Source of the DNA: Diphasiastrum complanatum
Taxonomy: Eukaryota > Streptophyta > Lycopodiopsida > Lycopodiales > Lycopodiaceae
Direction of reading: 5' to 3'
Length of the DNA stretch: 64,000 bases
NCBI GenBank assembly: GCA_029204225.1
Contig: CM055097.1
Location: 53,807,592 to 53,871,591 of the forward strand
The notes under the pieces are model-generated. The model was not told the origin of the DNA and searched no databases. It saw nothing but the letters and a program-made list of their open reading frames with translations. Numbering within the stretch: position 1 is the stretch's first letter; each line of letters begins with the position of its first letter. Positions 7,200-64,000 of the stretch are shown here, piece by piece. The translations under genes and the position numbers were made by a program.

Positions 7200-8059
7200 G
7201 CCTCTTGTAGCATTTGGATGCAAAATGCCCCTTCTTTCCACAAAAGAATCATTTTAGCCTTGACTTGTCCTTTGCCTTTGAACTTGATGTTTGATCCTCC
7301 TCCTTGGACTGCTTTGCATGATCCTTCTTGGATCCATTGTCTTCTTCTTTCCCTTGAATGAGAAATTTGCTCTCTCATCTCCATCTTGCAATGATAAGGA
7401 ACTCATCCTAGATTTTGTATGGAGCATCCTACACTCTTTAGCCACTAGTACACTATGGAGCTTATCAATTGATGGCAAAGTGTCTTGGATGGCAAAATTT
7501 TGAACCAAATCGGATAACTCATCTCCTAAGCCATTGAGAATCACTTGTACAAGCTCATTATCAAGGATCTTCTCACCAATAGAAGCCAATTCTTTGTCGA
7601 GAGACTTGATCCTTAGCACATACACTTGTGCACTTTCATCACTTCTCCTCATGCTTTGTAGGATTTGGTTTCTTATCATAAGCACTCTTAAAGTGTTGGA
7701 TTCATATATAGCTTTTACAAAATCCCAAGCTTCCTTGGATGATTTGCAAGAGGCTACCAAATTAAAGAGGTCATCGCTAACATTCATTTTGACGCAATGA
7801 AATGCTAGTCTTGCCTTCTTCTTGTATCTAACCAATTCTTGTCCTCCAAGAGGCTCATCCTCTTCATCTAAGACAATATCAAAGAGTTATTGGAGACTAA
7901 GAGTGACTCCATCCTCACTTTCCATATTGAGTATTTGTAGAATTGAACCTCGAGCACTAGATCCAAGAAGGAATCCACAATGGTTCCCATCCCCCAATGA
8001 CTTTTACTAATGATGTACTTGTTGGCCCTCCCTAAGCTCTTCTCCAAAATTTGCCTCAC
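7200..8059 (-). pseudogene. Copia gag with damaged zinc knuckle
   Basis: Minus frames: YSIWKVRMESLL (start of gag, 8059-7868), then after a frame change ARLAFHCVKMNVSDDLFNLV, SSKEAWDFVKAIYE and DELVQVILNGLGDELSDLV (7835-7254), the usual helical gag. The zinc knuckle lies in a third frame as FFCGKKGHFASKCYKR. Its expected first cysteine is a TGA stop at about 7249-7251. Two frame changes and this stop make it a pseudogene. Confidence 0.87.
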
Positions 8060-8653
8060 TAGAAACTCACCTGATGTTCACAAAGACACAAGTGGCAAGA
8101 TCCCCTTGATCTTGATTTACAAGAGCTTTTAGGAAGGTTTCTACAAAACAATGCTCAAGAAAATTGGTTTTGATTTGAACCTAGAAACTCAAAGGTTTCA
8201 CTTGTCTTGATTACCTCAAATTTGACTTCTAGCCCTCTCAATGGACTTATAGCCACAGTTCTTACACTCTCTCACAAAGATGAAATGAAGATTGGATGAG
8301 AATCTATCAAAGAACTATCAAATCTTACCAATTTTCACCATTTTTGGACAAAAAACATGACTAAATCTCACTCACACCTCTTGATGGTTTTACAAGACCT
8401 GTATATCACTTTAAGAGGACCTATTCTCAGCCTAGATTAATTAGATTCTATGACACTAAGTCAAACCTAATCAATGGCACTTGACCTTGGTATCTTTTCC
8501 TAGGATTAGCACCAAAAAACACCATCAAGATGCAATAGAATCCAAATTTATGGATATAACTAACATTTGAGTATTAAATGCAGGTTTAGAGGTGCCCACA
8601 CAATGGACAATACAAAATGGATTTGTTTTTTATCAATGGTTAATGCTCTTGTA

Positions 8654-8669
8654 CTTGGATCTGATACCA
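8654..8669 (-). other. Primer binding site of nested Copia
   Basis: The minus strand reads TGGTATCAGATCCAAG directly after the CA end of the 5' LTR. It differs from the common TGGTATCAGAGC at one position. Confidence 0.85.
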
Positions 8670-9364
8670 TGTGAAAGTACTGTACTTTAGACCATAAGTG
8701 GATCTACAAAATATCTGCAAGAGTGATTGGATGCTTGCTTTACAACCTATCAAAAAACTAGACACAAAATAGTTAATCTAGATTGGCAATTTGACAATCA
8801 ACAAGCAAGAACAATCAATAGCATTGATCAATCACTAAATCCAACTTGGCACATGTGTAATAAAGGTTGTAGTATGGCCTAAAAGCTGAGAAACAAGTAC
8901 AAATTTATTCGGTTGTATTTGGATCACAAAAACTCAATGTACAATGTGGAGTTGCCAATGAGCTCCAAAAAATAATCTATCTTCTCACTATGGGAGCTTG
9001 GAATACATAGCAAGAGTGACTTTCTTTGTGAAGTTAGGTGGATTTCCAGCATGTAATAAGGAAGTTAACTCGACTCTCTTGCTCTAATTTGCAACCCTAG
9101 CCTAATTCCTAGAATCATGCCTAGTAGGTGACTAGTTGGTCAATTTTTCACCTTAAACTTAGGTGTAGGTCCTATAATCTACGAATCACTACCAAAATGA
9201 CATGACCAACCCTTTAGACTTGATCTAACATATAGTACGGTAGGTTACCCACGTGGCTCCATGGCCTCACACGTGTGGGACCCACTTACGTACATAATTT
9301 TCATTATGTATTCTACATGGTTTTTGATCAAGCTAGATTTGCCAATTTTTGGCAATTCTTTCCA
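8670..9364 (-). repeat. 5' LTR of nested Copia
   Basis: Second copy of the 4963-5655 LTR, with the same termini in the minus reading (TGGAAAGAATTGCC...CTTTCACA). It carries the same palindromic CACACGTGTGG near 9267 and is followed by the target duplication AAATG. Confidence 0.93.
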
Positions 9365-9369
9365 AAATG

Positions 9370-9845
9370 TTGTCATTATAAAGGTTTGGAACAACGTCTA
9401 AAATCATGACCTTCAGCTAGAAGAAAGTGTTTTTGTTTCTTTGATAACCAAGAAACAACTCCTCCACAAATGAATGTTGGATAGGCACTTGTGGACTTTC
9501 TATCCCTTTTATCACCTGCAAAATCCGAGTCACTAAAGGCATGAAAATCAATAATATCCCCTCTATAGAGAATTCCATGATCTACAATGTCCGAGAGGCA
9601 TCTCAAGATCCTTTTTGCACTTTTCCAATGTATGATCATTGGATCTTGCATATATTGATTTAACGTACACACACTAAAGCACAGATCATGGCTAGTTTGG
9701 TGATCCACTAAGGAGCCTATAAGTATCCTATAAAGAGTGATGTCCATAAAAGATGCTTCATCACTTTTATTGAGCATTTTTACATCTTGCTCCATTGGTC
9801 ATTAGATTTCTCAATATCAAAAGACCCTTTAAGGAATGCCATGTA
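9370..9845 (-). pseudogene. Copia RNase H, N-terminal half (outer element)
   Basis: The minus ORF at 9795-9376 reads YRILIGSLVD, HWKSAKRILRCLSDIVDHGI, FSDSDFAGDKRDRKSTSAYP and VVSWLSKKQKHFLLAE. This is the Copia RNase H signature (FSDSDWAGD.DDRKSTSG; SWSSKKQ). Upstream, 9796-9845 gives the end of RT before the sequence loses similarity. The rest of the domain continues at 4962-4727, across the nested insertion. Confidence 0.92.
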
Positions 9846-10326
9846 GGATAAAGAAAAAAATCAAAAAAGAAAAACAATATTGTTTATTTGCTTGCCCCCA
9901 CCAATCCCGAGGCCTCCTTAACTCCCAATGATCTAACCATAGAGTCTATTGTCACAATTAAGAACCCTAAACTCTTCACAATCTAACTTGTCTAAATTTG
10001 AAAATACATTCCCTCCATTGGTTACAAAGAGGGCAATCTTCTCATTGGATCTAGAATATGAACGCCATCTCCAAATTCAAATCAAGGAAAAAAGCAAAAT
10101 GTATGAATATGCATTCCCTCCACTAGAATGAAAATTTGAGTGCCATCTCGAAATATGAATGCCATCTTCACATTGGAATAGAAATATGAGTGTCATCTCC
10201 AAATATGAGTGCCATCTTCTCCTTGGAATGAAAATATGAGCACCATCTCCAAATTTGAATCAGGCAGAAAAGCAAAATCAATGGGTTGATGGTATAGAGT
10301 ATATAATATAATAAAAGATAAGTACT
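9846..10326. repeat. Degenerate tandem repeat, 'atatgagtgccatctcc' motif
   Basis: Between 10040 and 10270 the motif (a)atatga.tgccatctcc recurs at least five times. Longer blocks such as 'aaatttgaatcaggcagaaaagcaaaat' are related to the stretch at 10075-10101. No coding sense recognised. Confidence 0.65.
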
Positions 10327-12130
10327 TTGTTTTGTTTTAAAAAAGTTGTTCTTAGTACTTTGATGCATCTGATTACTTTCTTGTTTTTTCTGATGACGAC
10401 ATTGTATCATCTACATTTGGATATCCCTACTAATTTGGCACCCCTACAGAGAAGAAGAGACAAAGGAATTCAAATATCTGTTGAAGATTGTTCTCGTTAT
10501 AGGGCAGAAGGAAAGAAGAACTTGGATTTGTGGACAAATGGAACATTATATCCTCAAGATCCTAGCACTTTGACTCATCCCACATTCTCTTCAATAACTA
10601 ATCTAGTTACATGGATATGCAATGGGCATACTGGATTACTAGGATATTGTGAGAGATTGAAGAATCATGGATATCAGTTTAATATGAAGAAAATTCACTT
10701 TTTAGAATGTGAGTTAATACAGATATCCTCTTGTTGGCAAAATAGAGATTGTCTTCTCCAAAAGCCCTTAGATGAAAATGAACAACTTAAAAGAAATAAT
10801 GAATCATTTCAAAAGATAACAATCGATATCAAAGTAAAACTAGAGCAAATGTAATCAATCTTACAATCTATTCGAATTGAAAACTTACAATTACTGAAGA
10901 TGTGAAATTGGCTAAGAAGAAGGCTAAGAATAAGAAGTGAAAGCAACAAAGTTGCAAGGATATTCAAACTCTTTCAAAAGGAGGTTATAGAAATAGAAGG
11001 ATTCGTGCATTCAAGTAAGCATATTCTGATTTTTGTAACTTGATCAATGACATATGGATTTATTTCAGCTACGGTGATATTCTACTAACTATCTGTCTAT
11101 TTGCGGATATGCATTAGTAGCTCCTCGGAATATTAAGGACAATGCTTCACCTGGAATGTCGTTGGACTCAATATTGACAGGCAAATCCACTGAGTGTATC
11201 ATGATGAACAATAGGAGTTCAAATGTAAAGTGCAAAATAACAGAGTCTTTGATGGTGGACATTCAAAAAAAATTAGATAAAACTATAGTTCAGGGTGCTT
11301 ATGATTTTGCAGGTATTAGTAGGGAAGCATATGCAACCATATTTAAACTTAATAGAGAAGCTTTTAAGCAAGTTCAAATTAGAAAAGTCCCAAATTCAAG
11401 GTCATATCACTTGAAGAAAGAGAGGGATACATTAAACATAGGTATGCATAAGATCATCAGTACCCCATTTTATATTGAGGAGGTGTATGAAACTGATGGA
11501 AGATCAATATCTTATAATTCATCAAACAACTTATTTGTTGATTGAAATTACTTGCTAAGATACATCTTCACATTCTATGCTATAACCTTTGAAAAGGTGA
11601 ATGGCAAAATAATCATAGTACTTAAGTTAGATGAGTCAGAAATTGTGAGGCAAAACTAGATTACTGAAAGTTGATGTATAGAGGAAGCTTGATAGTATGA
11701 TTGAAATTTTAAGAAAAGATAAACTTTCTGATATTGATAAGAAAGTTGTACAAAAGTCTTGTGTCGAGTTTGTTGATGCAATATTAAAAGCATGGAGAGA
11801 AGATCACATCACTCATTACATGGTTAGTATAAATGCTTTGAGATGCTTTTAGTTTTTCTTATATATTTTGATTTAAGCATAAGACTGACATTACAATTTT
11901 GACATGTGCAGCCCATCCTAAGTGATCATACAACAATTTCTACAAACACATATGGAAGCCTGAGTGTTTGATCATCACAAGGGATGGAGAAGTCACATTG
12001 GCAAGCACGGGCAACATTTCATCAAAATACACAACATGGAGGTACCAATGAAAAACGAAACTACATTTGTCAATTATTTCAGTGGTTCTACGGCAGAGTT
12101 AAAATTTGACAAATAACAAAATCCACAGAA
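10327..12130 (+). pseudogene. Transposase-like gene, decayed and probably spliced
   Basis: Plus-strand open segments run in series: 10327-10854 (LDLWTNGTLYPQDPST ... then a charged helical tail), 11100-11657 (CGYALVAPRN..., YDFAGISREAYATIFKLN, VNGKIIIVLKLDESEIV; one TGA in frame after NNLFVD), about 11690-11820 (IEILRKDKLSDIDKKVVQ, FVDAILKAWREDHITHYM), and after an AG acceptor near 11911 a segment with QGMEKSHWQARATFH and then QHGGTNEKRNYI. The LDE and late QG-E-SH motifs recall catalytic regions of large eukaryotic DDE transposases, but I cannot name the family. It may be a transposase or an unrelated unknown protein. Stops and frame changes show it is dead. Nothing here resembles the Copia/Gypsy proteins on either side. 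Confidence 0.45.
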
Positions 12131-12163
12131 TACAGCAAGTCTAGAAAAGCATGCAAGTTAAGA

Positions 12164-12243
12164 GAAATTAGAATATTGCTGAATAGCATATTACATTCTT
12201 CATGAAATTAGAATATTGCTGAATAGCATATTACATTCTTCAT
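12164..12243. repeat. Perfect 40-bp tandem duplication
   Basis: The 40-bp unit beginning gaaattagaatattgctgaa occurs at 12164-12203 and 12204-12243 with no difference, so the duplication is recent compared with the surrounding decayed genes. Confidence 0.97.
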
Positions 12244-12354
12244 GAAAATGTGCCATCTACAAATATTTAGAAAAGCAAGAGAGAAGAGCATCATAATCAA
12301 ATGATATGTACTCAATGTAAATGTATTGATTGTATCATAACAGAAAACAAAGTG

Positions 12355-13850
12355 TTCACTCTTCATCGTCAATTTTTGTATATCCTTCTGTGGTTGTATT
12401 GTCATGAAGAAATTCTTTGCTTGAGTATGCATCTAATAGATGTGCATTATCCTTGTTTCCACTAAGTTCAATAAACGTAGAGTACAGTGAATAATGGGAG
12501 CTCCTTAAAGAAACATTCTCATTAGTAAAACCTAGAATGTTCAAAACATAAAATCTCTTGACAAAAATGATCTTATTTGTTTTAACAAATTTATGTCCTC
12601 CTAAGTAATATGATAAAGCATTAACAACCATTATTAGTGTCTCCCCAACTAGAATGAACTTCGAATGGGCACAATACAGATCTCATTCTTTGAAAAATGC
12701 CTCAGATAGTGGCCAAGTCCACTATCCCTCTGGAACGAGGAAGCATGTTGTTTGAAACCACCTCGTCTCGCAGCAAAGCCATCAATTATGAGTGCATCCT
12801 GCAATAGAAAATAAGAGCTAAAAAAAAAACAAGTCATATTCAGAAGATAACAACATTCTTAAGCAATAAAGTTAAAATACTTATACATTTTTCATCATCG
12901 GCAGCGACCAAATCCGGATGATCAATATTATGACCGCCTACTAAAGAAGAATCATCTGTAAAATGCATTAATGATAGATGAGGGAAGCCCATCTGGGATT
13001 GAGATGCCATGCATTCTTCATCAGATGGCATGCTTCGTCCATGCTCAACAAAATTTGATAAAGCTTTCGTCATGCATTCTTCATCGGTCATAAGTCCATC
13101 TGCATCATCATAATCAATTTCAGGCACCAGGTCTTCGGTTTCAAAATCTACAATGTCGAAGAATTCAAAAATTGTGCCGGATAGTAAACAAAGCACCTCA
13201 TCCTCACGATAGTCAAAAAACTTACACAAATCAACTGTAGTACATCATCATTTATATGATACATAGGCAAATTAAAAAAAATATTTCGATTCATCTCCAA
13301 ACATTGATTCATCAGCAGTGATATTAGAGTCAATGAAAGAATCCCAAAGCACTTCAGTATCAACATCAAGGAAATCACTATCCTTATCAGGGGTGTCGAT
13401 AAGGAATGACTAATGTCTTTAAAGGATGATGGAACTGAGGATGAGATCATCTGAAGATCAGAAACAACAACTTCCTCATCATCTGAGATCTAAACTAGCA
13501 GAAAAAGTATGAAACTAGTCTGGTATTCAACAAAATGACATTTCCTCTTATAGACATGACACATTGTAGTGCATCTTATTTGTTGAAACAATCTAGTAAA
13601 CATCCTATCTAGTATCTGCTTGAACAACGGAAGGAAATGAACAAGATCAGTAAAATCCATGAACGAGAGAGGACCTATGGAGATAACAAGTATACTGACT
13701 ATATCCTTGAATCTAACATAGTGTTCATAAAATACTTCAGAATTAGGCTGCATAGTCTTGAAAACATGTAGATATGGGAGAAATAGCATGTGAAAGTAGT
13801 CTAAGTTCTCAGTAATTCCAAATTCAATAAGAAATGCACTCGACTAGATC
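12355..13850 (-). pseudogene. Hypothetical acidic protein gene, spliced, decayed
   Basis: Minus-strand segments, in order: SAFLIEFGITENLDYFHMLF onward (13850-13490); a segment with DSDFLDVDTEVLWDSFIDS; CKFFDYREDEVLCLLSG and a strongly acidic run with LMTDEECMTKAL and PSDEECMAS (13229-12900); then after a GCAG acceptor (~12798) ALIIDGFAARRGGFKQHASS (12797-12649); and, one frame over, LIMVVNALSYYLGG to TEGYTKIDDEE (12631-12356). The TDEEC/SDEEC pair suggests an internal duplication. I do not recognise the family. It is transcribed away from the H3-Ulp1 gene across a shared ~1 kb region. Frames do not join cleanly, so it is probably a pseudogene. Confidence 0.4.
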
Positions 13851-14139
13851 CCGAGGACGACGCCATCATTTTCAAACAAATATCACTTCTGTGCATGGGG
13901 TATGCAGACAGGAAAAAAGAGATTGTAAAGAACGTGCACATGAGCTATATGTATGGAAAATCCAGTTTGGATATCACACTAGTGCGCAGGTAGAAGACTA
14001 GCAACAATAGATACTACAAATAGTGTGCACAAGAGCAATATACCTCAGAAATCGAGAAAAAAAAGTAAAAACTTAATCGGTAGGCAATTTTTTCACATGT
14101 ATAGGTCAACGGTCAAACAAACACATGTCTATTCCCTAA

Positions 14140-14432
14140 TGGTTTGTACGACTACACGTGTGATCTGACTGTTGGACACGTGTTGACATGTGTCAGGAGT
14201 TCATTGGTAGAAAATGCAATACGACACGCCTTCCTAATGGTCCGTACGACTACACACGTGTGATCTGATTGTTGGACATATGTCACGAGGTCATTGGTTG
14301 GAAACGTGCCATGTGTCATCTCCTTATTGCACCATACGACAACACACGTGTGACCTGACATCTGGACACATGTCACGCGATCATTGCATGGATGAGATGA
14401 CAAGTGGCAAAATCTCATGAACTGACAGTTCG
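14140..14432. repeat. Three tandem ~93-bp units with CACGTG palindromes
   Basis: Units start near 14143, 14236 and 14328 (tttgtacgactac, tccgtacgactac, caccatacgacaac). Each contains acacgtgtga followed by 'ttggacac/atgtcacg'. They hold repeated G-box cores (CACGTG) and lie between the divergent genes at 12.4-13.85 kb and 14.8-16.5 kb, so they could be promoter elements (inference). Confidence 0.75.
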
Positions 14433-14524
14433 CATGTGCGACAAGACATGCGGTCTCACGTGTGAACAATTTTGATTAAAGTCCTTGACCCCGAGGCAGT
14501 TTTTTTCAAAAACATTTCTCCATC

Positions 14525-14775
14525 TTTTTGCATATCGCTCTTGTGTGATGCTAGTTTATGTGCCTTTCTGCCTACTACCATTCATGCACACAGATCCGAT
14601 ACACTGTACCTCCTCATATCGCTCTTGTGTGACCCTCTTCTATCTGCTTTTTACTTGTTATCCCCCTTGTGCATAGAAGCGATATATCCGTACATATCGC
14701 TCCTCTGCAACCACCATTACACTCGTTTCCGTCATATCTTACTTCTTGCACACAAGTCCGATATCCCTTTGACTA
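14525..14775. repeat. Tandem ~80-bp repeat, 'catatcgctc' unit
   Basis: 'catatcgctcttgtgtga' occurs near 14529 and 14617, with a diverged third copy near 14694 (catatcgctcctctgcaa). Each is followed by a tract ending in 'gcacacaagtccgatat' or a related form. It lies just upstream of the histone-like reading frame. Confidence 0.7.
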
Positions 14776-14780
14776 CCAGT

Positions 14781-16545
14781 ATGGACAGGAGAAAGTAAAA
14801 AAAGAGAGAGTTTTCTCTCTTGGTACTTCCTCAGATCCTGCCGTTCCCATTAATCCTCCCAGACGAACTAGAAAACGCAATCGTAGCAGGTGCCTATATG
14901 ATATTTGCAAATATAAAAAATCCACCCAACTCCTGATTCCCAAAGCACGATTTTACTGTGTTGTCCGCCCTATCACTAGGTTAGATCTCGGTAGTATAGT
15001 TAGGTTCACACCCGGGGCACTTCAGTGCCTTCAGGAGGTTGATGCGGATTATGAGAGCCTCTTTTTTGAGGACTCATTTTTTCTCGCCATACATGCCAAG
15101 TGAGTTACGATAATGCCTAAAGATTTTCAGCTGCTATACAGGATGAGAGATAGATATTCAAAATTACATATGTGTGAGCCAGCTGCTGCTCCTAGACCCG
15201 ATCCATTAGATAGGACAAACCTCCCTACCAAGAGGCTAGGAAGCAGCCAGCCCCCAAGAGAGCTCTGAAGAAAGTAAGAAGGGTTGTTAATCCAGAGTCT
15301 CTTTCTGTAGATAATGTAGATACTGCTACACTGGATTCGGTTGTAAACATAGCTACAACCATTTTGGATAATCCAATTATTCCTGTGGATACTTTTCATC
15401 CACCTCCTCCTTCTTTTATAGTTTTTTATACATATATAGATTCTGATGAATCTCTTAAATCTGAGAGTCAAATATCTGATGCTGTAGACAGAATTGGAGT
15501 TTCATTTTATTTTAGATTAGAGAAACTTGATTTTAGTATAAATTATAGGGTTATTGATTGTTTGGATCTGAAAAATAGACGAGCTTCTATCAGCGATCCT
15601 GTGATAGACTCTGGGGTCACACTCTTGCAATTTGACATTGCAAGAGATTCATCGAGTGAAATTTTGGTGCTCAATAATTTTTTCCTTCAGGCAAGTAAGG
15701 AGAAAAACGGTAATTTGTCACAATGTCTGTTTAGTGGATGCACACCAATTACAAAATATCTATTGGTGCCTTATCACTACAAGTAAGTCAATTATATGCT
15801 TCTTCTTGTTTATAGCTTTATCATTGGCAATATCATTTGAAATATTTCTCAGAATTGCAACTAATGGACTTTCTATTTTATTTTGTAGTGAGCACTGGAG
15901 TTTAAATCCAATCTCTATTATTAGGAGATCTATAGATAATTTTATTAAACTTTTTTGTGTAAAGATAAATTTGGCTGGTAATACACATAAGGATATTGAC
16001 TCAATCTTGCCGATTGTATGTAAATACATTCCACCAGAGACTCCCCATGCAACTGAATGAGATATCATCAGTTTGTAGGTAAAGTCTGTCCTTCTCATTA
16101 GCATTTTGAAATCAATAATATAATGTGTTCTTATTATTGTGTGGTTTTCCATTATTGATGTCTTGTGTGCTGAACTTTTTGCAGTCACCCCAGCAAATGA
16201 TTCATTCAGATGTGGGTGGTACACTTTGTACAGTGAAAAGTTGTTTTTTGAGTGGTTCATCCTTCAACAAGATGTTGATATTTCAAAGGTAATTACTTTT
16301 CTTTATTCTTGGTTTTGGAATCGTGATTCATTTTTCTATTCTAGAGATTTTCTAACCGTAACTAGTACGTGAATATTCTATATTGTAGTTTAAACTTCCT
16401 GAATACACTACACCCCAGGTGTACGTATTTAGGCAAGAAATGATCCTGAGCTATTGGTGAGGGTAAGGCTTCCCCCTGTTGATGATGGCGCACCGGATGA
16501 TGTTATTATACTAAATAAAGATTAGAAAAATATAGATATCATTGA
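14781..16545 (+). pseudogene. Histone H3/CENH3-like fold fused to Ulp1-like protease
   Basis: Exon 1 begins near 14781 (candidate ATG there is out of frame with the main reading). A basic tail RRTRKRNRSR leads into YDICKYKKSTQLLIPKARF, VVRPIT, RFTPGALQCLQE, FFEDSFFLAIHAK and VTIMPKDFQL: the H3 alpha-N to C-terminal helix in order. AAG-TGA-GTT at 15106 replaces the invariant Arg (CGA to TGA). LLIP and a loop 1 one residue longer than H3 are CENH3-like. After a net 1-nt shift near 15210 the frame runs through a basic linker to KYLLVPYHY. A GT-AG intron (15783-15888) is removed in frame to give NEHWSLNPISII, the Ulp1 catalytic His region. A later exon (~16186-16289) has PQQ in one frame and DSFRCGWYTLYSEKLF in the next, the Gln/Cys region. 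The last exon ends DDVIILNKD-stop at ~16525. Dead, but the order is clear. Confidence 0.7.
15783..15888 (+). other. Intron in the H3-Ulp1 gene
   Basis: Donor CAA|GTAAGT at 15783 and pyrimidine-rich acceptor ttttgtag at 15888. Removing it restores the reading frame as LVPYHY-NEHWSL, so the gene was spliced and is not a processed copy. Confidence 0.75.
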
Positions 16546-16844
16546 ACAAATATAGATTGAAAATGTATAGAATTGATAGGAGAATATACATTTATATATC
16601 AAATGCAGCTCCATTTTATTGAATTTGGGAACCCAAAATACATGTACTAATGCCCAACTTGGGCTTTCATTTATTGAATGAAAGAGTCTATACACAAATT
16701 TTGCTGAATTTTATTTGAAGCTATTGTTTTTCCACAATGTTGATTGTTGTAGATAGACCTTTGTAGCATGTTACTAGCTCCTGTCTTTTTCACATTTGTG
16801 ACAGGACAAATATTAGTGAACATGCCATTGCAAATCATTTTCCT
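16546..16844. other. No recognisable feature
   Basis: AT-rich 3' flank of the H3-Ulp1 gene. No terminal inverted repeat recognised. Confidence 0.4.
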
Positions 16845-17240
16845 TTAGTTTGTACTATTTTGAAATGGCATTAAACATAGAGTACTTACGAGTCTTCCAT
16901 TGATGATGAATCTAAAATAAGTCGGTAGATTGGTATGTAATAGAATGAGCTCTGCTTTGATAAAATCAAGCATCCAATGCTCTTCCACCTCAACCATAGT
17001 AAAAAATTCCTCATTGTGTATGATGCTTATCTCCTTTCGGTCTGTGTGACCATTTAGTTCAAAGTCTTGATCTAGTGGTAGCCATGTGCTGGTAGTTTTC
17101 TTGTATCTCTGATAGCTACATGTGAGACTGAGCATTTTTTTTTCGATATGATAACAGAAGATCATTGACGACCTTTTTATCCTGCATTCTATATCATTAT
17201 TTGTTTTACTGTCCCAGCCTTGATCCATGAGATCTGACAA
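16845..17240 (-). CDS. Unidentified ORF, 131 codons
   Basis: An open minus-strand frame, MSDLMDQGWDSKTNND onward, with a middle segment STWLPLDQDFELNGHTDRKE and an acidic FTMVEVEEHWMLDFIKAELI. Composition is protein-like and the length is above chance for this AT-rich stretch. I recognise no family and it lacks clear flanking signals. It may be a further exon or gene of the 10-17 kb cassette, or a chance frame. Confidence 0.25.
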   Translation of the reverse strand: MSDLMDQGWDSKTNNDIECRIKRSSMIFCYHIEKKMLSLTCSYQRYKKTTSTWLPLDQDFELNGHTDRKEISIIHNEEFFTMVEVEEHWMLDFIKAELILLHTNLPTYFRFIINGRLVSTLCLMPFQNSTN

Positions 17241-17589
17241 AGTCTCATCTAATAAATCCTTGCAAACAAATAAAGTTGGTGTCCTTGCTATTTAGGAAAA
17301 TCATATTGTCTCAAATAAACCAGACCAAAATTAGGTGTTTCCTTCACATATCTTAGATTTTATTTTTTGCTACTTTTTAATGATCCATCATGGGGGTTGC
17401 TATAAACTGATTAACCAAACTCACAATAGAAAAAAAAAAAATCAGGCCATGTGATGGTAAGATACATGATGCTTTCAACTAGCAAAACAATGTGACACCA
17501 ACTAGACCACTACCATGAATGCATGATAACCCTTACCAACCTTACTAGGTGTAGTTAATGACTTGCAATCAAACATATGAAATCACTTT
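17241..17589. other. No recognisable feature
   Basis: AT-rich, several stops in all frames, no motif recognised. Confidence 0.4.
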
Positions 17590-18075
17590 AGAGTTTCATA
17601 AATATTTTTATTTTAAGAAAGTTTGATATCATGTGCATTTTGCCACACTTCTGCCCCTGGACAATAATGTATAAGATCTAGATCCATCATCTCAAACTAT
17701 TTGCATGAATGGGTTTTGTTGGTATTTACAAGATCTTGCTCATTTCCAGTGATAATAATTTCATCAATATAAGCACTACCAAAATGACACTATTCCCATT
17801 TGTACAAATTGGGATCTAAAGTAGTTCTCACAAAATTGTTGCAAATAAAGCAATTTTCAATGCATCCATACCATGCTTGTGGTGCTTGTTTGAGGCCAAA
17901 TAGTGCCTTTCATAGCTTGCACACATTGTCCCCTTGCCCTTCCATAACAAAGCCTTGTGGTTGGAGCATATACACTTTCTCTTTCAGATTTTCATTTAGA
18001 TTAGCAAGCTTTACATCCATTTGATGGATCTTCCATTTGTGACCTATTGTATGGGATATAGCAATGTATAGTAGA
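17590..18075 (-). pseudogene. Copia reverse transcriptase fragment
   Basis: The minus strand reads WKIHQMDVKLANLNENLKEK, VYMLQPQGFVMEGQGDNVCK, ALFGLKQAPQAWYG and DPNLYKWE, then YIDEIIITGNEQDL. This is the core of Copia RT. The usual YVDDI active-site motif appears as YIDEI, and stops lie after CKL and KWE. Gag, protease and integrase are not recognised upstream, so it is an isolated fragment. Confidence 0.9.
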
Positions 18076-18648
18076 CATACATTGGGTTTTGAGCTTCAAT
18101 ATATATATCATTGAAAATTATAGCTCTATTTACAATGGTTCTTTATGCCTGCACTTTAAGTTTGGGAATTTATTTGACTATCTTGTGCCTTATAACCATT
18201 ATTACAAGTTGCTCTATTTACAAACATAGCATAGTTGTTCAAACCATTTTATTAACTATCCTATTGACTAATTATAGTCTAATTTAGCACCATGACTATA
18301 TTTAGCATTACCTATTATTTAGCACATGCGCTAATTGCATGCAAGACATGACACTATCCCTACTTAAACATTTATGTCCTAAAAATGAAGATCATGTGTG
18401 ATACTTCATCGAGTGTCATGCTCCATGAATCCCTTGATAGTCAGTGCAAATCTTTGGCTACATGTAATGAAAGAATAATTTTTCCTGTAATGTTCTCGTT
18501 GATCACCATTCTTTGTTGATCAGATATTGTTGTCTTATGTTTTGCTTCCAACTTATTATTGTAGAGTGAGGTTGTGACAACTTTTCTATTGAATTTAATT
18601 ACAAGTTTATTGCATATATTTTATAAAATCATTAAAGAAGAGGTTTAT
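18076..18648. other. AT-rich sequence, no gene recognised
   Basis: Possible continuation of degraded Copia pol on the minus strand just above 18075 (KWKIHQMDV is preceded by an RT-like stretch), but nothing firm beyond. The last five bases (18644-18648, TTTAT) are the left target duplication of the next element. Confidence 0.4.
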
Positions 18649-19395
18649 TATAGCGGGTATTTCCTATCCACCTTCAACCCTAGATCCAAGCACACAAGCA
18701 TCAAGGAGATGAAGAGGATTGACTAGTTGTCACGCGGAGATTCGTTCCCATGAGAGCGATAGCATATTTCATAATCCATCAAATGCATATGATTCATATC
18801 TCATACTAAGATCCATTAACACTAAGCATTAACACTACATCCATTAACACTAGATCCACAACAATGATAGAGACTTACTCTTCTCTCTCTTACTTTCTCT
18901 CTCACAAAAAGCATAAGAATGATCAATCCCAATAGGCATCAAATCCAACAATCAGCAAATCCAAAGAAAACATGAGAGTTAGAGGAGGAAAATGAAGAGC
19001 AAGGACATTCCATATTCATTCCATAAGAGGGCCAACCTGCTTGTATTGAATTGAAGAGAATACGTACAAATGATTCGAATCCACCACTATATATAGTGGA
19101 TTTTAGGGCTTTGGCCTCAAATCCTATTGGCCAATTTCTACCCTAAGTATTTGAAATTCAAAAAGTGGAGGGAACTGATTTGAATTTTGGTGGGAATCCT
19201 TTTTATTCACTAACTTGACTATTAGGCCCTGCAACATTAAAAGTCCCACAAAAAGACCTAAAGTCCTTTTATTAACTTCTAACTAATCAAATAGCTATGT
19301 GATCATCGGGTTGGACTTACACACACAGGGTGCCAAATCCCTCTCACCTATTAACTATGGTTAGGGTTTTCTCGATATCCGCAAACCCTCCAACA
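18649..19395 (-). repeat. 3' LTR of the Athila/Tat-like element
   Basis: Full-length copy (747 bp). Its first ~75 bp and last ~27 bp match the shortened copy at 20210-20316 (shared: ggtatttcctatccacc and aaccctccaaca). Confidence 0.88.
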
Positions 19396-20189
19396 GTATC
19401 CCCCACCAAAACTGGTGGCGGTCCCATGACACCAACCTCGACGCTTGAATGCAAATTTCAATAATAACCATATGGGTTTGGTAGCCATTCATGATAACCT
19501 TGTTCATTGACAAATGGGTAGTCGACACCATCCAAAAAAAGATCCTTAGATAATGCTTGTTGATTTTGATCCTTGTAGATAGGTACAGCTACTAGCAATG
19601 ACATTGTTGAAGCTAATGACAAGGTTACAGTTTTTTTTTTTTTGACATTTTCAAAAGTTTGTAACTTCCTCAATATTTAACGAAATGAGAAAAAAATTAT
19701 ATCTCCACAAAGCCCTTTCAATGCTATACAGCTCTATCTATTCAGATTGAATTTTAAAAGATAGAAGTTAGTGCAAAAAATGGATCAAATGGGGCAGAAA
19801 AATAAAAATAAAAAACAGAATTTTTGGTTTTTGACAAATTTACAAAATTTTGTTGCCAACTTCAAAGAATTTTAACTTGCTCAATACTCAACGGAATCCA
19901 AAAACAATTACATGGATAGAAAGCCCTTTAATGCTCTACAATCTTACCAATTTAGAACGAATTACAAAGAATAGAAAGTTGGGCAAAAATTGAATCAAAA
20001 AGAGCAAAAAAATAAAAAATAAATAAAAAACAAAAAATACAGTCCCCACTCATTTTTTGAATGTTTTTGGACATAACTCTCACAAATCACATCCATAATG
20101 CAAAACTAACCCTAGCATGCCAAAACCAAGATGCCTAAATGCAAGCTAACCATCATAAACATGCTGAAAATGAAAATTCAGCATAGCTC

Positions 20190-20206
20190 CCCGGCAACAG
20201 CGCCAA
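20190..20206 (-). other. tRNA-Asp-type primer binding site
   Basis: Plus-strand ccccggcaacagcgcca is the complement of TGGCGCTGTTGCCGGGG, typical of plant Athila/Tat Gypsy elements (one base off the usual TGGCGCCGTTGCC). Confidence 0.85.
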
Positions 20207-20209
20207 AAT

Positions 20210-20316
20210 TGTAGTAGGTATTTCCTATCCACCCTTAACCCTAGATCCAAGCACACAAGCATCAAAGAGATGAAGAGGATTAACTAGTTGCCTCGATATC
20301 CACAAACCCTCCAACA
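20210..20316 (-). repeat. 5' LTR with large internal deletion
   Basis: TGTAGTAGGTATTTCC start and CCCTCCAACA end match the other LTR. The middle is gone, joined at 'gattaactagttg|cctcgatatcc'. Confidence 0.88.
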
Positions 20317-20321
20317 TTTAT

Positions 20322-21540
20322 GAAATGCAAGATGGGCCTTTGACTAGCATTCTAGTAGGCATGGGTTGACATAATACATGCAACAAGACATTCGATAATA
20401 TTTTTCCCAACATCTTTTTAGATCAGACAAGGTATCCAATTCTTAATTCATCTCTTTTTATCTCTACATATGGTCCTACTGCCTTGTCCATAATGTGAAG
20501 TAATGATTTCATTCTGTAGCTCTAATCCGTTTGATAGAGCAATGAGATTAAAGCACTACATCTAGCTGTTATCAGTCGCTATCAATCAGTTCGAAATTTG
20601 TTGGATTTTGGCCCCGATCGTGAAGAATTCTGTACTTCAAGTCAAAATTAGATATAGGATCAAAATTGTGATGTAGGATCGAAATTGTTCGAGGTCAAAA
20701 TGAAATTGAAATTGACCTAGGTCGAAGGATCAAATCAGATCTATCTTAATGGATTTCAAAATTGATCAAATGATTGAATCAAATCGATCCTATTAGGTCG
20801 TGACAATATTTTGATATTGATAATTCGATTCATACTGATGATTTCGACTTGCTATTGTTTCTGACTCGATTCTTCATATATTTCGGTAGTTTCAAGTCTT
20901 GATAGACAAACTGAATGGATTTGGATTAGAGTAGGGTTTGAAGCATTGTTGAAATCCATATGCAGAAAGTAACAAACCTAAACAATCTCTAACTATGAGA
21001 CCTTGTCAAGATGTAGGAACATCCAAAAAAATTGTCAATATCTTCCAGTGGATCAAGTATGATGAGAGACTTGTTTTTGACCTATACTAATGTCAAAAAT
21101 TAGAGAGCATAACATCCATAAAGATGCGTAAAAAATAGGTCATGGTCATCATTCACATAAGCAAGACAATGTAGAAAATTCTACACAATGTAGAGACCTA
21201 TCACCTCCTCCAATATCTTCATCAAAATGAGGTATGTACATCAATTAATAAACTAGAAATGGAAGACATAACTAAACAAAAGAGGGATAAGCTTTCTCAG
21301 CCTTATCCCTTAGATTCCACGCGTGTGGACAACCACACTTTCACATGGAGATCAATTTGACAACCAAGATCAAGTTTGGGCCTTTGTATTAAGAGAAAGA
21401 TCAAATCAAACGAGTGAGCAGTGTAAATGTCTGTAATTGTAGCTTGAATTTGGAGTACAATCCAATTTTCAATAAATTAAATTACTTCTTACTTCCTATG
21501 ATCAAAGGTTATGATCATGTTTTTGATAATGATTTATGTG
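20322..21540. other. AT-rich sequence, no gene recognised
   Basis: No conserved domain in either strand. The portion 20600-20880 is unusually rich in 'gatcgaaattg/ggatcaaa'-type repeats. Confidence 0.4.
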
Positions 21541-22081
21541 GATATACTTCTAAGTAGTTAGATTCAACCAAGTGGTGGAGGATCTGGGAAGAGATCATTT
21601 CCTTCTTGAGGTTCCCAACCATCAGGAAGTTGTTCAGAAGCTAGGTGACAGCATGGAGGGTGGGATCACGAATGGCTTCCAACATATAACCATCATTCGT
21701 ATGGTACTGGTTGATGGTGGTATCAACAAATGGCTTTATGACTGATTTGGCATGTTTGTGAGATGGAGTTGGTCAAGGCCTAGAAATGATACCTATGGCC
21801 TCACTGACCCGCACCTTGTACACGACTCCTTGAAAAGTGAAATAAAACGTGGCCTTGGTTTCATTCCAAGTACCAAACGCCATGTTAATGAGCTCCATAC
21901 TTATTTTGTTTGAGAAGGCCCTGTCATGGATCCCCATCGTCGTGAGCAAGGGCTCAGCAAGGTTCAACCATTCAGCCACTCTGCTTGTGCTAGGAAGTGA
22001 CATGATGTCCGTTGAGATTGGAACATCACGTAGTACGACAAATCTGGGTGAAAGATGGGGATCTGACTCGGTAGAAGACAT
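21541..22081 (-). pseudogene. Unknown repeat-family ORF, copy 1
   Basis: The minus frame begins MSSTESDPHLSPRFVVLRDV and runs STDIMSLPSTSRVAEWLNLA, EPLLTTMGIHDRAFSNKISM, FYFTFQGVVYKVRVSEAIGI. It is interrupted, then resumes as IKPFVDTTINQYHTNDGYML, EAIRDPTLHAVT and LLNNFLMVGNLKKEMISSQI. It aligns colinearly with the plus-strand ORF at 62630-63300. The IW/TW...FYFTFQG...V segment faintly recalls the plant mobile domain and plant transposon-associated proteins, but I would not assign it. A stop after VT and a break near 21775 mark it as a pseudogene. Confidence 0.75.
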
Positions 22082-22680
22082 GGTGGCAAAGAATAATAAG
22101 TAAAACTGAGAATGGAAGGCTTGTGTATCATAAGGCTGTGTAAAAGTTTTGAAAAAGTTAGGTCGCGAGAAAAATTCGCAAGAGCTTCGCTATCACAAGT
22201 GAGAAAGGAAATCGAAATCAACCCTTTTATAAGCTAATTTTGAGCGTCTATTAGACAAAGTACTAGTTTGGCTGAACAGTTCTGGACAAAAATATGCAAG
22301 CATGTTCAGTACTATGCAAATAGCTTCCAAAATTCTCAACGAAGGTTCTTGGCCAATGGTATAGATCAGTGAAAGTTCTGGAGGTCTAACCCTCGCCTAA
22401 GTGCATCCTTCGCCTAGGTACTACATTTGATAGAAAATTTCAAGATCTAAACCTATGTCCAACCTAATTTTGGCATTCTAAATCCATCTGTCAAGACGAC
22501 GAAGGTTCATAATGAATGTAGCATGCTCGGCGAAGGTTCCCAAAGTGGAATATCTTTGAACTCTCACCTAGCTTGAAAACAGGTACTTACTGTGCAAACC
22601 AACCTTTGCCCACCTCAATATAGGTAAATCTGAACTAGATGTATGATCAAGAAGCTAGGCGAAGGTTCATATGACTGTTT
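22082..22680. repeat. Upstream flank with dispersed cgaaggttc motifs
   Basis: The nonamer cgaaggttc occurs near 22339, 22501, 22541 and 22660. This flank lies upstream of ORF copy 1 (minus) and has no recognised coding sequence; it may be the leader or LTR of that element. Confidence 0.4.
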
Positions 22681-23667
22681 GTTCAAGATCTTACTAAAAA
22701 AGTGATTTTTTGAGTCATTTTCTATCACAATTTGAATCCTGAAAATAATTTTCTTCCTCTTTTTCTGATCCGATGACTTTCTTGATTTTTGCTCATCATT
22801 CTTTTTCTTTTTTTTTGTTTTTAATGGTGTCTTTTCCAAAAAAGAATCAACAAGTAGTGAAAAACAACAAAATTGTAAAACAACAAAAGTAAAAATGAGT
22901 AGATCTTCAATCATGCTGGTAGATCTGGCTGCTAATTAGCACAGAAAGACCAAGTTCTCTTATGAGACATTTGAGACTAAGTGAATAGACAAAGTCCATG
23001 ATGTGTTCCCAAGAAGTGTATCCTTTTTGGAAGAGACTTCTACAAAGTCTTTCCTCAATATGCTCAAGGATTTTGAAGTTGATGATGATAATCATGAAAA
23101 ACGAAATTGATTCAAGTGGAGAAGTGGAACTATCTCTAGTCTAGTGATTGACCTCCCGCGTGGATATAAGAACTCCATAGATAGCATCAAGAAGAAGGGG
23201 AGGAGATTTGGAAAAAAGACAAGAAGTCCAAGTGAATTCAAGGAGAAATAAATGATTGGATAGGCCAGGGACAATAAAACAAGAGGAAGAATCGAAGTCG
23301 CAGAGGTTGAGGAGTGGTAAAATCAGAATGGATATGTCTAAAGAGAAGAGGGGGAGATGAAATGGAAGTATGGCCTAGTATTGCTCATTTCAAGTTTTTA
23401 TTCTTGTCATGTAGATCAAGTTTGTAAAAAGCTAATCAATTTTCAAAAAAATTGATGATTTGAATTTTTAACTAAATGACCTAGGGACATGTTTATTTCA
23501 ATTATCCCAAGTACACTCATAATAATCAAAGTTCGAGAAAGTGAACTAGTTCAATTCAACAAGCCATTTCTTTTTCTCAACAAAGTAGTTTCTTACTTGC
23601 TCTAGTTTTATGCAATTGGATCATAGATTTAGAAAACTTAGCACTTGCAATTTGTAATGGTTGAAAA
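22681..23667. other. No recognisable feature
   Basis: AT-rich. Lysine-rich minus frames near 22615-22914 come from T-rich tracts. No domain seen. Confidence 0.4.
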
Positions 23668-32264: not shown

Positions 32265-35200
32265 GTAGAGATCTAATCATAAATCACTGGGAGAGAATTG
32301 TGTTCCATGCCCTTGCCTGCCCTCTATTGGATGGATTGATGCTCCTGAATTATCCAATTTGAGGTAGAAGATTGCCTATTTCAGTAGAGACTATCCTCTC
32401 ATATGTGGAATGTAGAACCAATCATAAAATATGTGCATGAAATGGCATCACCAAGAAAAAGCATAGACGTTCATAGCTGCCAAACTATAGTAACCCAAAA
32501 CAACTTAGTTATTAGTGTTTCCACCCAGTTCAGAATCGACCTTTTCAGAATCAGAAGAATCGGCATGAATCATGGTTCCAAACCAAGCCCCTCCTGGAAA
32601 ATCGAAAAAAATCGGCAATTTTTTTTGGGCATTTTTTTTTTGTATTGCTAGAAAGCATGTAAGATAACATCTACAATGTTTGTTGAATCTTATAAACACT
32701 AGGTTGCTACATGCATGCATTTGAAAGTTCATTGTTGCTTGTAAAAGCTGATATATGCAACACAAACACATGCACACATGCACGAGTGCGCGCGCGCGCA
32801 CACACACACACACACACGATATATAGTTTTTAGTGTAAAATTTGCTACATGGAAATATATGAATCTATGAAGAAAATGCAACAATTATTTTCAGCTCACC
32901 AGGTGAATAACATGTTCTGTCCAAATGTATGATTACCTTTTATCTTGCATTAAAATCAAAAGCATAACTTCAAAGCTTGCAAGGCCCAGCTGAACATCTC
33001 TGGTTTTCATATAATATGAGAGAGGGAGAGAGAACACACTCACAATGCATGTGCTAGAATCACTAGATACAGTTAGAATGATGTCACCTAAGAGAGGTGT
33101 GATCACTAGTGTGCCTATAGGTCTAATCCACAGGATTCCATTAGAGCAGAAGCAGAGACAGTCATAAAATGTTTGCTCCATGAGTAATTGGTTGCGTGGC
33201 ACAGTAAACCTCTCAATGATGCTAACTAGGCATGTTCGTTGAGGGAAGGGATGTCATATTCTTTTATATTCATATCCCATTGTGAAGATGTATAAATATA
33301 AAAATGTAAAACTGTAAGTGTCCATATGCCTTTGGTGATTTTGCAAATGGATCTCAATAACACGGTCACTAGTCAAAAGTCACATGCTTGTGATTGGCAC
33401 AGGGGTATTGGGTCTCATTTGGAGGCCATAGGACTAACTTCCTAAAATGTAAGAGTTGACCAGTCGAAGGGACACTTGGTCCAATACATGAGTGGCAATG
33501 GTCTAACATTTTTAGCAATTTATGCCTCCTTGCCTTGGTGACATGGTCCTACAAAGTGGTAAGTGTTGGTGATTAGATTACATGCACCAAATGTTAGTTT
33601 AAAATATGTCAAGGTTAGGTAGGTATCAAGGGAATTTATGAGGCATTTATTCCGATGCAACTTTGGTTGGGAGGAGACTTGCAAATATGTTCTCTTAGGG
33701 TTCTAATTTTGGAATTTCAAAATGGCAACAAAGTGAAAGCTTTTGTATCTATCTTGTGTATTTTAGTAGTTGGTTGTTGCACTACCCATTTTTTGGCCAT
33801 TGAATGTGTCTACTTTTGACCTGTCCGAGTTTTGAATTCGTTCCACTCGCCCTAAAATTAGACCACTATGACTTTTAGTGAACCCTAGTAGCTCTCCCTT
33901 ATTCCCCTAAAAACTTACGCATCGTTGTTGTTAGAGCATAGTCTTGGCACTAGCTTGACCTCGGCACGACCAGTTACCACAGGGCCTGAGGCCAAGTATT
34001 TGCAATGGCCGGTGACCGGAGTGGACATTTGTCTTGAAAGCTGGGACATGTGCGTTACAAGCAGTGAACCGGTGTTGACAAGTTGTCAAAGACACGGTGG
34101 ATTGTGACCATCAGGATCCTAGCCGTCAGTGGCGAGATGCTAGTCAGCAAGTAACCAAGTTGACCAAGCAGGTCACAGGTCTTTGGCAAGGTTCGGGAAT
34201 GGTACCCTATGAGTCACTCAGTATTCACAGGTCACAAGTAGTATGCATCCCAGGTGGACTAATCACCCATTGTTGGATCCCATGTGCGAGGTGACAGAAA
34301 TAGCAAGTAGCAGGACTCTTAGAGGGTGCCTATGGTTGGGAGGTTCACTACAAATTGGTCTTCTTAGTTTCATGAGCTTGGAAAGACAGGTCTGTATTGA
34401 TATTACTATACTAAACAAGTGGACTCCAGCCGCCTTTTAAACAGTTGACTTGACTGATTTGTAACACATCTAACTAAACTAGTTGGGAGCCCCCTCAACA
34501 ATGAACATGAAGATCCTATCGATACACTAAGAGCCCTTTGTGCTTGCTTATTATTCCCACCTCTTCTAAAGTTTTTTCCTCCCTGCATATGCTTGCCACC
34601 AACTATGTGTTAGAGCCTAAACTCCATGTCCCGGTTATTTACAGTTTTCATAGACAGATGCACATTTTGTGATTATTGTAATTACTAAAATGCTTAAGTT
34701 ACCGGCCTGTGGTGACCTTTGAAAGTAATCTATTTAGTTGTAATTGGACCTCAGAGAGTCGTGCTTAGCTTTGGCATGGGGTACTGGGTCATTTATTAGG
34801 AGCGGCTGCACCGACCTCCTAAAAAGGAGTTGACTAGTCAACATGACATGTGCCATATGCTCACATTGTGTACAGGACATGCTAAGTTTTGAGTGAAGTT
34901 TCAGATTAGGAGTCTAACATTTGGTATCAAAGTAAAGGTTGTGTTGAGAGGAGGGCTGCAAATTTTTCAGAAATACCTTAGATGGACCATCATTGATCAG
35001 AGATTCAGAAGCATCAAAAGGTCGTGAAATTTTGCAGAAATTGGAGCCAACGGGAGGGCAGTCCAGCGTTGAAGGACAGCAAGAAAGTGGGCAATTTTTG
35101 AGCTGGAAAATCCAGGATCAAACGAAATGTAAAAATTCTGATTTACTTGTGGTTGGCTGTGTACTATGTGAGAAATTGTCAAAAAATTGGCAAATCTAGC

Positions 35201-62560: not shown

Positions 62561-62629
62561 TAAAAATTTTCTATGCTATTTTTTGATATACACTCGCACT
62601 CATTATTCTTAGTTTCTGTTCTTTCCATC

Positions 62630-64000
62630 ATGTCTTCCACATATATGTCTCAGTTGCCTTGTTACACTATCCATCGTGATGTCCCATCTGCAACAGATAT
62701 CATGATCCTTCTTAGCACAAGCATGCTCACTCAGTGGATGACCCTTGCGAAGCCTCTGCTTACTGCAATGGGTATTCATGAGAGAGCCTTCTCGGGGAGA
62801 ATCAACATGGATTTTATTACTCTTGCCTTCAGTATTTGGAAGGAGGAGAAATCCAAATTTTACATTACCTTCCAAGGAGCCACAAACAAGGTGCATGTGA
62901 TTGAGGCCGCCCTTACTGCCATAGGGATAGCGTCTAGTACCCAAGCCTCGCCGAACCATAAGCAAGCCAAACATGCTATTAAGCCTTATATTGATATTAC
63001 CAATGATCTGCACTGGACTACTAACGACTATCTTCTAGAGGCCATTACTGATCCTGCCATTCAGGCCACTGCTCAGCTCCTCAACAATTTCCTGATGGTT
63101 GAAAACCTCAGGAAAGACCGTATTACTTCTCTAATTTTGCATAGGATAGTTGAGTCTCAGGCCAAGATAGCCAAGGCTCCTCTGGAACCATATAACTGGT
63201 TCAAGACTGTCTTTGGAGAGCTCAAACGAGCCATCAAGAGCAATACCAAGCAACAATTTGCTATTGGCCAGATGTTGTCACTCCTAGCAGCCTCCCACCT
63301 TGAAAATAAAATCCATGGTTTTAGTATGGACGTCGTGCTCTCTATCTATGAAGAAGCACCGACAGAATCGTCTCAACAGGCATCGAGCTCACATATTGTC
63401 GTCGTCCATGCAACGAGATCATCATTCTTGACTCGCCTTCCATGTCATGACGTCGTACTAGGCAGACATCTTCAGCTACGCTTCCACCCCCTGCTGCTAT
63501 TCGCACTGAACTCCCTATTCCCCCCGCCTCTGATGCTTCCCTCGCCTCTGCTTTCTCACAAGGTTAGACTATGACAATTGGATATTCCAGTCACAGTTGT
63601 CCCGCCCGTCTCTTTTCCACAGATTCGAGTCATTTTTCCAAACACACAATCATTCATGGACATGTTTGATGATTCCAACCCACTGAGCCCAGATGAGACT
63701 TTTGTAATGCCCACAAGCCCCGGACCCTTTGAACTTCAATCCCCTAGAAGAGGATTCGAACAGTTCCACGATACTACTACTGTCTTTGATGATTCTTTTC
63801 AGATCAACCAGCAAGGTCAAGTTGAAGCCACACCAGACACCCTTAGGGTCGATCATGCTGTTATATTTCCAAAGCAATTCGACGCCACAGTACCAGAGGG
63901 TTTTAAAGTTGAAGATACATTTGAAGAAGAAGAATCGACCACACAACAGAGGCCAGTTAGCACGATTCCTACTAGACCTGCTCCTGTAGCTGCTGTGCCT
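62630..64000 (+). CDS. Unknown repeat-family ORF, copy 2 (runs off the edge)
   Basis: The start at 62630 (MSSTYMSQLPCYTIHRDVPS) is chosen because copy 1 at 22081 also begins MSST. It continues STSMLTQWMTLAKPLLTAMG, RINMDFITLAFSIWKEEKSK, FYITFQGATNKVHVIEAALT, LLNNFLMVENLRKDRITSLI and NWFKTVFGELKRAI. The frame is open to TGA at 63572-63574. The same frame then stays open to the window edge (NTQSFMDMFDDSNPLSPDET, acidic, Pro-rich). A stretch before the TGA (63380-63570) reads better one frame over as a Pro/Ala-rich linker, so two compensating shifts are likely. Family unknown; perhaps a gag-like or plant-mobile-domain-like protein. Confidence 0.6.

Follow-up and report, generated by a model that had tools for sequence, protein, structure and literature searches.

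The stretch of the Diphasiastrum complanatum genome analysed here, 64,000 nucleotides long and referred to as the window, is part of contig C6 of a 1.745-Gb assembly. It contains a region in which motifs of histone H3 are followed by motifs of a Ulp1-type protease. The preliminary description of this region proposed that one ancestral gene, borne by a mobile element, encoded a domain like that of the centromeric histone together with a deSUMOylase-like domain, and that the product could aim the element or its protease at centromeric chromatin. The locus therefore raises the questions of whether the two parts belong to a single gene, what kind of DNA carries it, and what its product may do.

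The H3 fold of the window was identified in a blind six-frame Pfam scan of positions 8001–23000 with stop codons read as X. The scan gave a single histone match (PF00125, E = 6.1e-14), and otherwise the copia family RVT_2 alone exceeded the curated cut-off. With the single TGA codon read through, the E value of the H3 stretch is 1.4e-15, and histone H3 chains from the PDB match it at 4.8e-17, which confirms the proposed fold. The Ulp1 motifs quoted in the preliminary description lie downstream in a different frame, and a GT-AG intron joins the two halves of the His box. The whole spliced read-through of the window gene, like two of four shorter pieces, has no Pfam match; in the other two pieces, which carry X at the frame breaks, Peptidase_C48 is the sole family found, at E values of 0.027 and 0.046, under the curated cut-off. 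The window copy's own Ulp1 part is thus only suggestive, and from the window alone the claim would rest on motifs. The reading frame is broken by in-frame stops, some of them at the end of exon 2, and it shifts both between the H3 part and the Ulp1 part and within the Cys box. The window copy is a pseudogene, the decayed form of a four-exon gene at 14781–16525 that starts at the ATG where its beginning had been placed. An H3 stretch on a small contig (G000:C1134:61237-61722) has the same score, identity and stop as that of the window and is probably a haplotig or duplicate.

The relatives of the window gene decide whether the fusion is real. A loose first look at the assembly found 6,532 candidates for the H3-like protein; the 150 scored ones all have E values of 1.3e-52 or lower, and by hand count the matched H3 stretch is free of stops in 42 of them. 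Twelve further copies of about 10 kb were picked from these 42 and read, the flanks of seven included. In 11 of the 12 copies, exon 1 is a single open frame of 328–357 residues that runs from the ATG to the splice donor region and encodes the H3 fold, the linker and the N-terminal half of the Ulp1 domain, a share that is uninformative for the family as a whole because the copies were picked for a stop-free H3 stretch. The exception, L013, departs inside the Ulp1 part. Alignment of seven copies with the window yields the four-exon gene; among four stretches read, E14 and E15 are intact, E16 contains one stop and has lost an acceptor, and exon 4 is missing from E11. Two copies, L014 and L015, are native, unmended genes of 479 residues with both domains above the Pfam cut-offs (Histone, 8.3e-22 and 3.1e-24; Peptidase_C48, 3e-9 and 1.3e-7). 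Because these copies are intact, the fusion of H3 and Ulp1 parts is real: one gene encodes an H3-derived tail, an H3 fold, a basic, proline-rich linker and a Ulp1/SENP-type (C48) domain. The idea of a single ancestral gene on a mobile element is thereby upheld, and the two parts are neither always separate nor without profile matches. A chance or misread fusion is ruled out by the intact copies elsewhere in the genome.

Structural comparisons agree with these assignments. Histone profile E values range from 8e-22 to 7e-25 across L014, L015 and a member of a sister family, L058, and H3 chains are the best PDB matches. The C-terminal part of an intact copy matches 14 PDB chains at E ≤ 10, the best at 1.2e-4, and every one of them is named as a Ulp1 or sentrin-specific protease; together with the C48 matches of L014 and L015, this gives the Ulp1-like part the significance that its motifs and intron in the window had suggested. 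The catalytic His, Gln and Cys of L014 align to those of 6dg4, 1euv and 1tgz, the three best of the alignments printed. The position of the catalytic acid is Asn by motif (KMNS in the window family, RMNSL in sister family C) and Val or a gap in the PDB alignments, which are gapped there. The protease may be weak or dead, since the acid of the triad is not conserved as Asp. An AlphaFold model of exon 1 has a mean pLDDT of 38.

The gene is carried by a DNA transposon. The sequence shared by the copies stops sharply at about 5.7 kb before and 2.3–3.8 kb after the gene start, and the element measures 8–9.5 kb with 32-bp terminal inverted repeats. Both ends are kept in two of the seven long copies (E15 and E19), the left end alone in E11, and the right end alone in E14, E16, E17 and E20; the long copies other than E15 and E19 are truncated or rearranged. 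The 32-bp ends of E19 are inverted repeats that differ in one base. Genome-wide, 2,417 repeat ends occur at up to three mismatches (control, 0) and 1,162 are exact matches to an end pattern with one A/G position, counts in which some ends may not belong to full elements. A host gene is ruled out by the copy number and the terminal repeats. The window feature is a decayed copy of this high-copy transposon (Table 1). Its alignment to E19 and E20 by blastn has identities of 86% at 9805–11648, 76% at 11649–14081 and 78% at 14781–17285. It has lost its right end and the greater part of the putative transposase block; of the 900-nucleotide E19 block that contains the HLAGDLK...HPCLYC stretch, 202 nucleotides align to the window.

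Table 1 Features of the decayed transposon copy and its fusion gene, in positions of the window
Feature	Positions	Strand	Evidence
Decayed transposon copy; right end and its terminal repeat missing	9798–17285	+	blastn to E19 (L019/L021) and E20 (L020)
Remnant of left terminal inverted repeat	9798–9822	+	Fuzzy match, 6 edits, to the 26-base end CATTAGAGGAGTTCTCAATATCAAAA
Putative transposase gene, remains of upstream part	10315–11545	+	ORFs similar to ORFs of E15/E19
ORF2, remains, on the opposite strand	12649–13843	-	Frame-0 pN/pS 0.42 versus 0.56–0.85 in the other five frames
Fusion gene, exon 1: degenerate H3-type tail, H3 fold, basic/Pro-rich linker, N-terminal half of Ulp1 domain	14781–15782	+	ATG at 14781; splice alignment; PF00125
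Histone H3 fold, with TGA stop at 15101–15103	14855–15148	+	Pfam residues 26–123 of window positions 14780–15265
Intron 1 (GT-AG), splitting the His box	15783–15888	+	
Exon 2: catalytic His box (EHWSL) and catalytic-acid region	15889–16078	+	His aligned in relative L014
Exon 3: Gln/Cys box (PQQ...DSFRCGWY), frame-shifted	16185–16288	+	
Exon 4: C-terminal end of Ulp1-like domain	16389–16525	+	Splice alignment
ORF4, remains, cut at the break	16845–17285	-	ORF 16845–17291; 90% identical to E16 ORF over 435 nt

The insertion sites and the remaining genes of the element were compared among the copies. At E15, the joined flanks and three related copia stretches without the insert form an ungapped alignment of 294 columns, which leaves no target-site duplication there. 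The insertion L037/L038 has a possible TCA/TCA duplication, those of E19, L039/L040 and L041/L042 have no obvious one, and for L035/L036 no relative collinear across the junction was found. Apart from the fusion gene, the element contains an upstream ORF on the plus strand, taken as the putative transposase, and three ORFs on the minus strand. The ORFs of the copies (putative transposase and ORFs 2, 4 and 5) match no Pfam transposase family and give sub-cut-off names only, and neither a MULE nor a Tnp2 transposase was found by Pfam in the six-frame scan of 8001–23000 or in these ORFs. The putative transposase ORF presumably resembles DDE-type proteins. For a viral or bacterial origin there is no sign in searches with two short peptide patterns each, which found no relative in viral contigs or in contigs of prokaryote genomes.

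Other repeats occur in the window. A remnant of a copia reverse transcriptase lies at 17544–18068 on the minus strand, about 0.26 kb past the broken right end of the element. Related ORFs at 21773–22189 (minus strand) and 62564–63574 (plus strand), which are 65% identical in DNA and have MSST near their start, belong to one repeat. Short repeats at 34608–34864, 43488–43949, 51891–52261, 53300–53605 and 55173–55604 are related at about 69–84% identity and are possibly miniature elements. Rfam has no match.

The fusion gene belongs to a wider set of H3-like genes. With canonical H3 as the query, 13 host H3 genes match at 97–99% identity, followed by some partial matches at 79–93% and by H3-like ORFs at 44–57% (150 scored of 6,060 candidates). 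Four groups of H3-like copies were read: the window family, A, and three others, B, C and D. Family B (L043–L049 and L052) has an H3-like fold with an H3-like ending, and no Ulp1 part was seen by eye in about 1.2 kb after the fold of L043. The H3-like ORF of this family, at positions 2–607 in L043, is repeated and has a CENH3-like look (FLIPRAPF), which may confuse the annotation of CENH3; in L043 it ends in LARRLRRERT. Family C (L050, L056–L058, L064 and a broken copy upstream of E16) is itself repeated and has the order of H3 fold, linker, Ulp1 His and Cys boxes and a resemblance to exon 4, the Ulp1 boxes being seen as motifs; the L058 frame, in which the intron is read through and the Cys exon is absent, has no C48 match in Pfam. 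Family D (L059–L063) combines an H3 fold with an H3 start.

The N-terminal tails of these proteins keep the Lys4 end of H3 and mostly lack Lys9. Most C and D copies read start with MARTKQ-[T/I/M]-[A/T]-R, from which L059 differs by one residue and L060 by two. At residue 9, all four family C copies read have Pro and all five family D copies have Gly. The broken C-like ORF upstream of E16 starts MARTKSIARA, with Ala at residue 9. Family A starts with MDRRKQTRRD or a near variant, in which the equivalents of R2, K4 and R8 are invariant in 11 of 11 rows and the place of Lys9 is taken by Asp in eight rows, Asn in one, Tyr in one and Lys in one (L012). The H3 tail ARTKQTARKS as such is absent from families A, C and D, and its Lys4 end is kept. 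Within the fold, the equivalents of H3 H113, K115, R116 and P121 are likewise invariant in all 11 family A rows.

Counted by exact genome-wide DNA patterns, each with a control count of 0 and with Arg codes that also admit Ser AGY, there are 581 MARTKQ-[T/I/M]-A-R starts, most of them known by the tail pattern alone. The start is continued by P-K in 20 of the 581, by G-H in 48, by G in 51 and by K in 26, so that 555 lack Lys9. A Ser/Thr-type codon (WSN) follows in 24 of the 26 Lys9 starts, and by hand comparison 22 of the 26 coincide with a host-like H3 match or are no more than about 1 kb from one; those away from such matches are C1:40570870, C17:25721131, C20:32980256 and C20:33002692. Some MARTKQ-type starts lie about 770–830 bp upstream of a B-type fold, and an upstream exon of family B may therefore encode this tail. 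One 2-Mb stretch (G000:C3:18.5-20.5 Mb) holds 37 of the first 100 MARTKQ-[T/I/M]-A-R sites listed, and this crowd is possibly a tandem cluster or a centromeric region.

Selection on the regions of exon 1 was estimated from 12 copies chosen for open frames (66 pairs, with the aberrant end of L013 included), and pairs that were saturated or had dS ≤ 0.02 were dropped. The median pairwise dN/dS is 0.12 in the H3 fold (59 usable pairs), 0.31 in the N-terminal part of the Ulp1 domain (66 pairs), 0.39 in the tail and 0.45 in the linker (65 pairs each). Pooled pN/pS is 0.110/0.494 for the H3 fold and 0.139/0.301 for the Ulp1 part; the low dN/dS of the fold is in part due to a higher synonymous rate there, with a pooled pS of 0.49 versus 0.28–0.35 elsewhere. 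Seven comparisons, one of which involves the window, give a pN/pS of 0.35 for the frame that encodes the fusion and of 0.49–1.10 for the five others; stop pairs number 3 of 2,323 in the coding frame versus 96–290 in the other frames, a difference that partly results from the choice of open copies, by which the pN/pS ratio is less affected. The median dN/dS of the H3 fold points to purifying selection on it, within a set of copies picked for open frames. ORF2 stands out as well (pN/pS 0.42 versus 0.56–0.85 in its control frames). The pN/pS of ORF4 is barely the lowest (0.49 versus 0.52–0.81 in control frames), whereas those of the putative transposase (0.53, with two control frames lower, down to 0.41) and ORF5 (0.47, with a control frame at 0.34) are not.

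The explanation of the whole that is judged best, with a probability of roughly 0.45, is that the fusion would bind chromatin and work against silencing there as a SUMO-protease-like factor. It is established that an H3 fold forms pairs with H4, that Ulp1/SENP enzymes take off SUMO, and that plants silence transposons by methylating H3K9 and DNA. The fusion protein would be made during transposition, and its H3 fold would dimerise with H4 or enter nucleosomes, carrying the SUMO-protease-like domain to chromatin, most simply that of the element's own copies. At the chromatin, SUMO would be taken off silencing proteins, or these would be blocked. The tail, which keeps the Lys4 end and mostly lacks Lys9, would escape the H3K9 methylation directed at transposons in plants. 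The element and its relatives would thereby be de-repressed. The two intact genes with both domains, the open exon 1 of 11 of the 12 copies, the number of terminal repeat ends, the low pN/pS of the coding frame and dN/dS of the H3 fold, the invariant residues and the scarcity of Lys9 speak for this explanation. Against it speak the absence of Asp where the catalytic one is expected, the Lys at the Lys9 place of L012, the higher synonymous rate in the H3 fold, the choice of open copies, the missing C48 match of the family C frame L058 and the H3-like fold of family B (L043), after which no Ulp1 part was seen. It is conceivable, if doubtful, that a superfamily of plant DNA transposons has its own H3 variant, with the Lys4 end and mostly no Lys9, fused to a SUMO protease, and that this variant sits in transposon chromatin and blocks H3K9-based, SUMO-assisted silencing.

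The fusion may have a different role, or none. If the protease is dead, the protein could tether chromatin, for example for an integration complex, or poison nucleosomes or silencing readers by serving as a decoy. The triad acid that is not conserved as Asp and the lower dN/dS of the H3 fold than of the Ulp1 part favour such a structural or dominant-negative function, which is possible but improbable, since intact family A copies retain the His, Gln and Cys boxes, which are also seen as motifs in family C, and since the dN/dS of the Ulp1 N-terminal part is still below 1. Host gene pieces may instead have been captured by the transposon through transduplication and ride as passengers of no use to the element. 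Plant transposons are known to contain ULP domains and fragments of captured genes, according to passages of PMC2528002, the window copy is decayed, and the compared copies were chosen for open frames. However, the low dN/dS of the fold, the lowest pN/pS in the coding frame, the shared architecture of the divergent families A and C, and the 42 stop-free H3 stretches among the 150 scored copies make passengers quite unlikely. An assembly artefact or misreading, with no real fusion at all, might be supposed from the breaks between and within the domains of the window copy and from its C48 match below the cut-off; with intact copies on other contigs, the chance of this is negligible.

The centromeric origin proposed for the H3 part, by which a descendant of the host CENH3 would steer the element or its protease to centromeres, has its own evidence. 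The family has the LLIP motif, IT after the α1 arginine, a loop 1 that is one residue longer than that of H3 and T..AL before LQE, which are CENH3 features, and its short αN, WLxEIR, resembles animal CENP-A. LLIP, cited earlier as a CENH3 trait, is indeed shared with CENH3, but it is also present in most of families C and D, in which loop 1 is no longer than that of H3. Against descent from CENH3, identity to the host H3 exceeds that to a provisional Arabidopsis CENH3 sequence both for L014 (55 versus 50%) and for the window copy (49 versus 48%), so that the comparison is itself provisional. A tree of 14 rows, including three likewise provisional CENH3/CENP-A sequences, has two of 11 inner branches starred and does not tell the two origins apart, and the sister families start with MARTKQTAR as H3 does. 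CENH3 descent and centromere targeting are thus not specifically supported, and this origin is unlikely.

The anti-silencing explanation has a counterpart among known transposons. VANC is an anti-silencing protein of VANDAL transposons, and a fusion that acted as suggested would by analogy share its role, that of a transposon protein lifting the silencing of its own family; to our knowledge, VANC has no histone or protease domain. The plant DNA transposons KI-MULE, of high copy number, MULE-ULP and CACTA-ULP have ULP1 cargo, as described in passages of PMC2528002. The present element is likewise a plant DNA transposon with a C48 domain as extra cargo. Unlike in those elements, the C48 domain is fused to an H3 fold, no Pfam MULE or CACTA transposase domain is present, and the terminal inverted repeats start with CATTAGAGG; E15, which lacks a target-site duplication, is the sole insertion with clear insert-free relatives. 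With histone H3 and CENH3, the protein shares the H3 fold, the strongly conserved end of α2 and loop 2 (KRVTIMPKD) and, in the sister families, the H3 start, whereas it is transposon-borne, fused to a protease-like domain, mostly without Lys9, without the Lys27 stretch and short in αN. Its likeness to Ulp1/SENP SUMO proteases consists of significant PDB and Pfam similarity in intact copies and of His, Gln and Cys boxes in order, and its differences are an acid position that is Asn or displaced and an N-terminal region that is a histone. Passages of PMC6431247 contain no mention of histone, and a transposon-borne H3 or an H3–Ulp1 fusion was not found among the open-licence literature matches listed, a set outside which most subscription journals fall.

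We know of no other transposon with a conserved histone gene. In a genome such as this one, transposon copies can swamp counts of H3 and CENH3 genes. The H3 variants without Lys9 would provide a natural test of how far the silencing of transposons depends on Lys9 and SUMO. If the fusion protein enters or binds chromatin, the element would be an example of mobile DNA that makes its own chromatin state.
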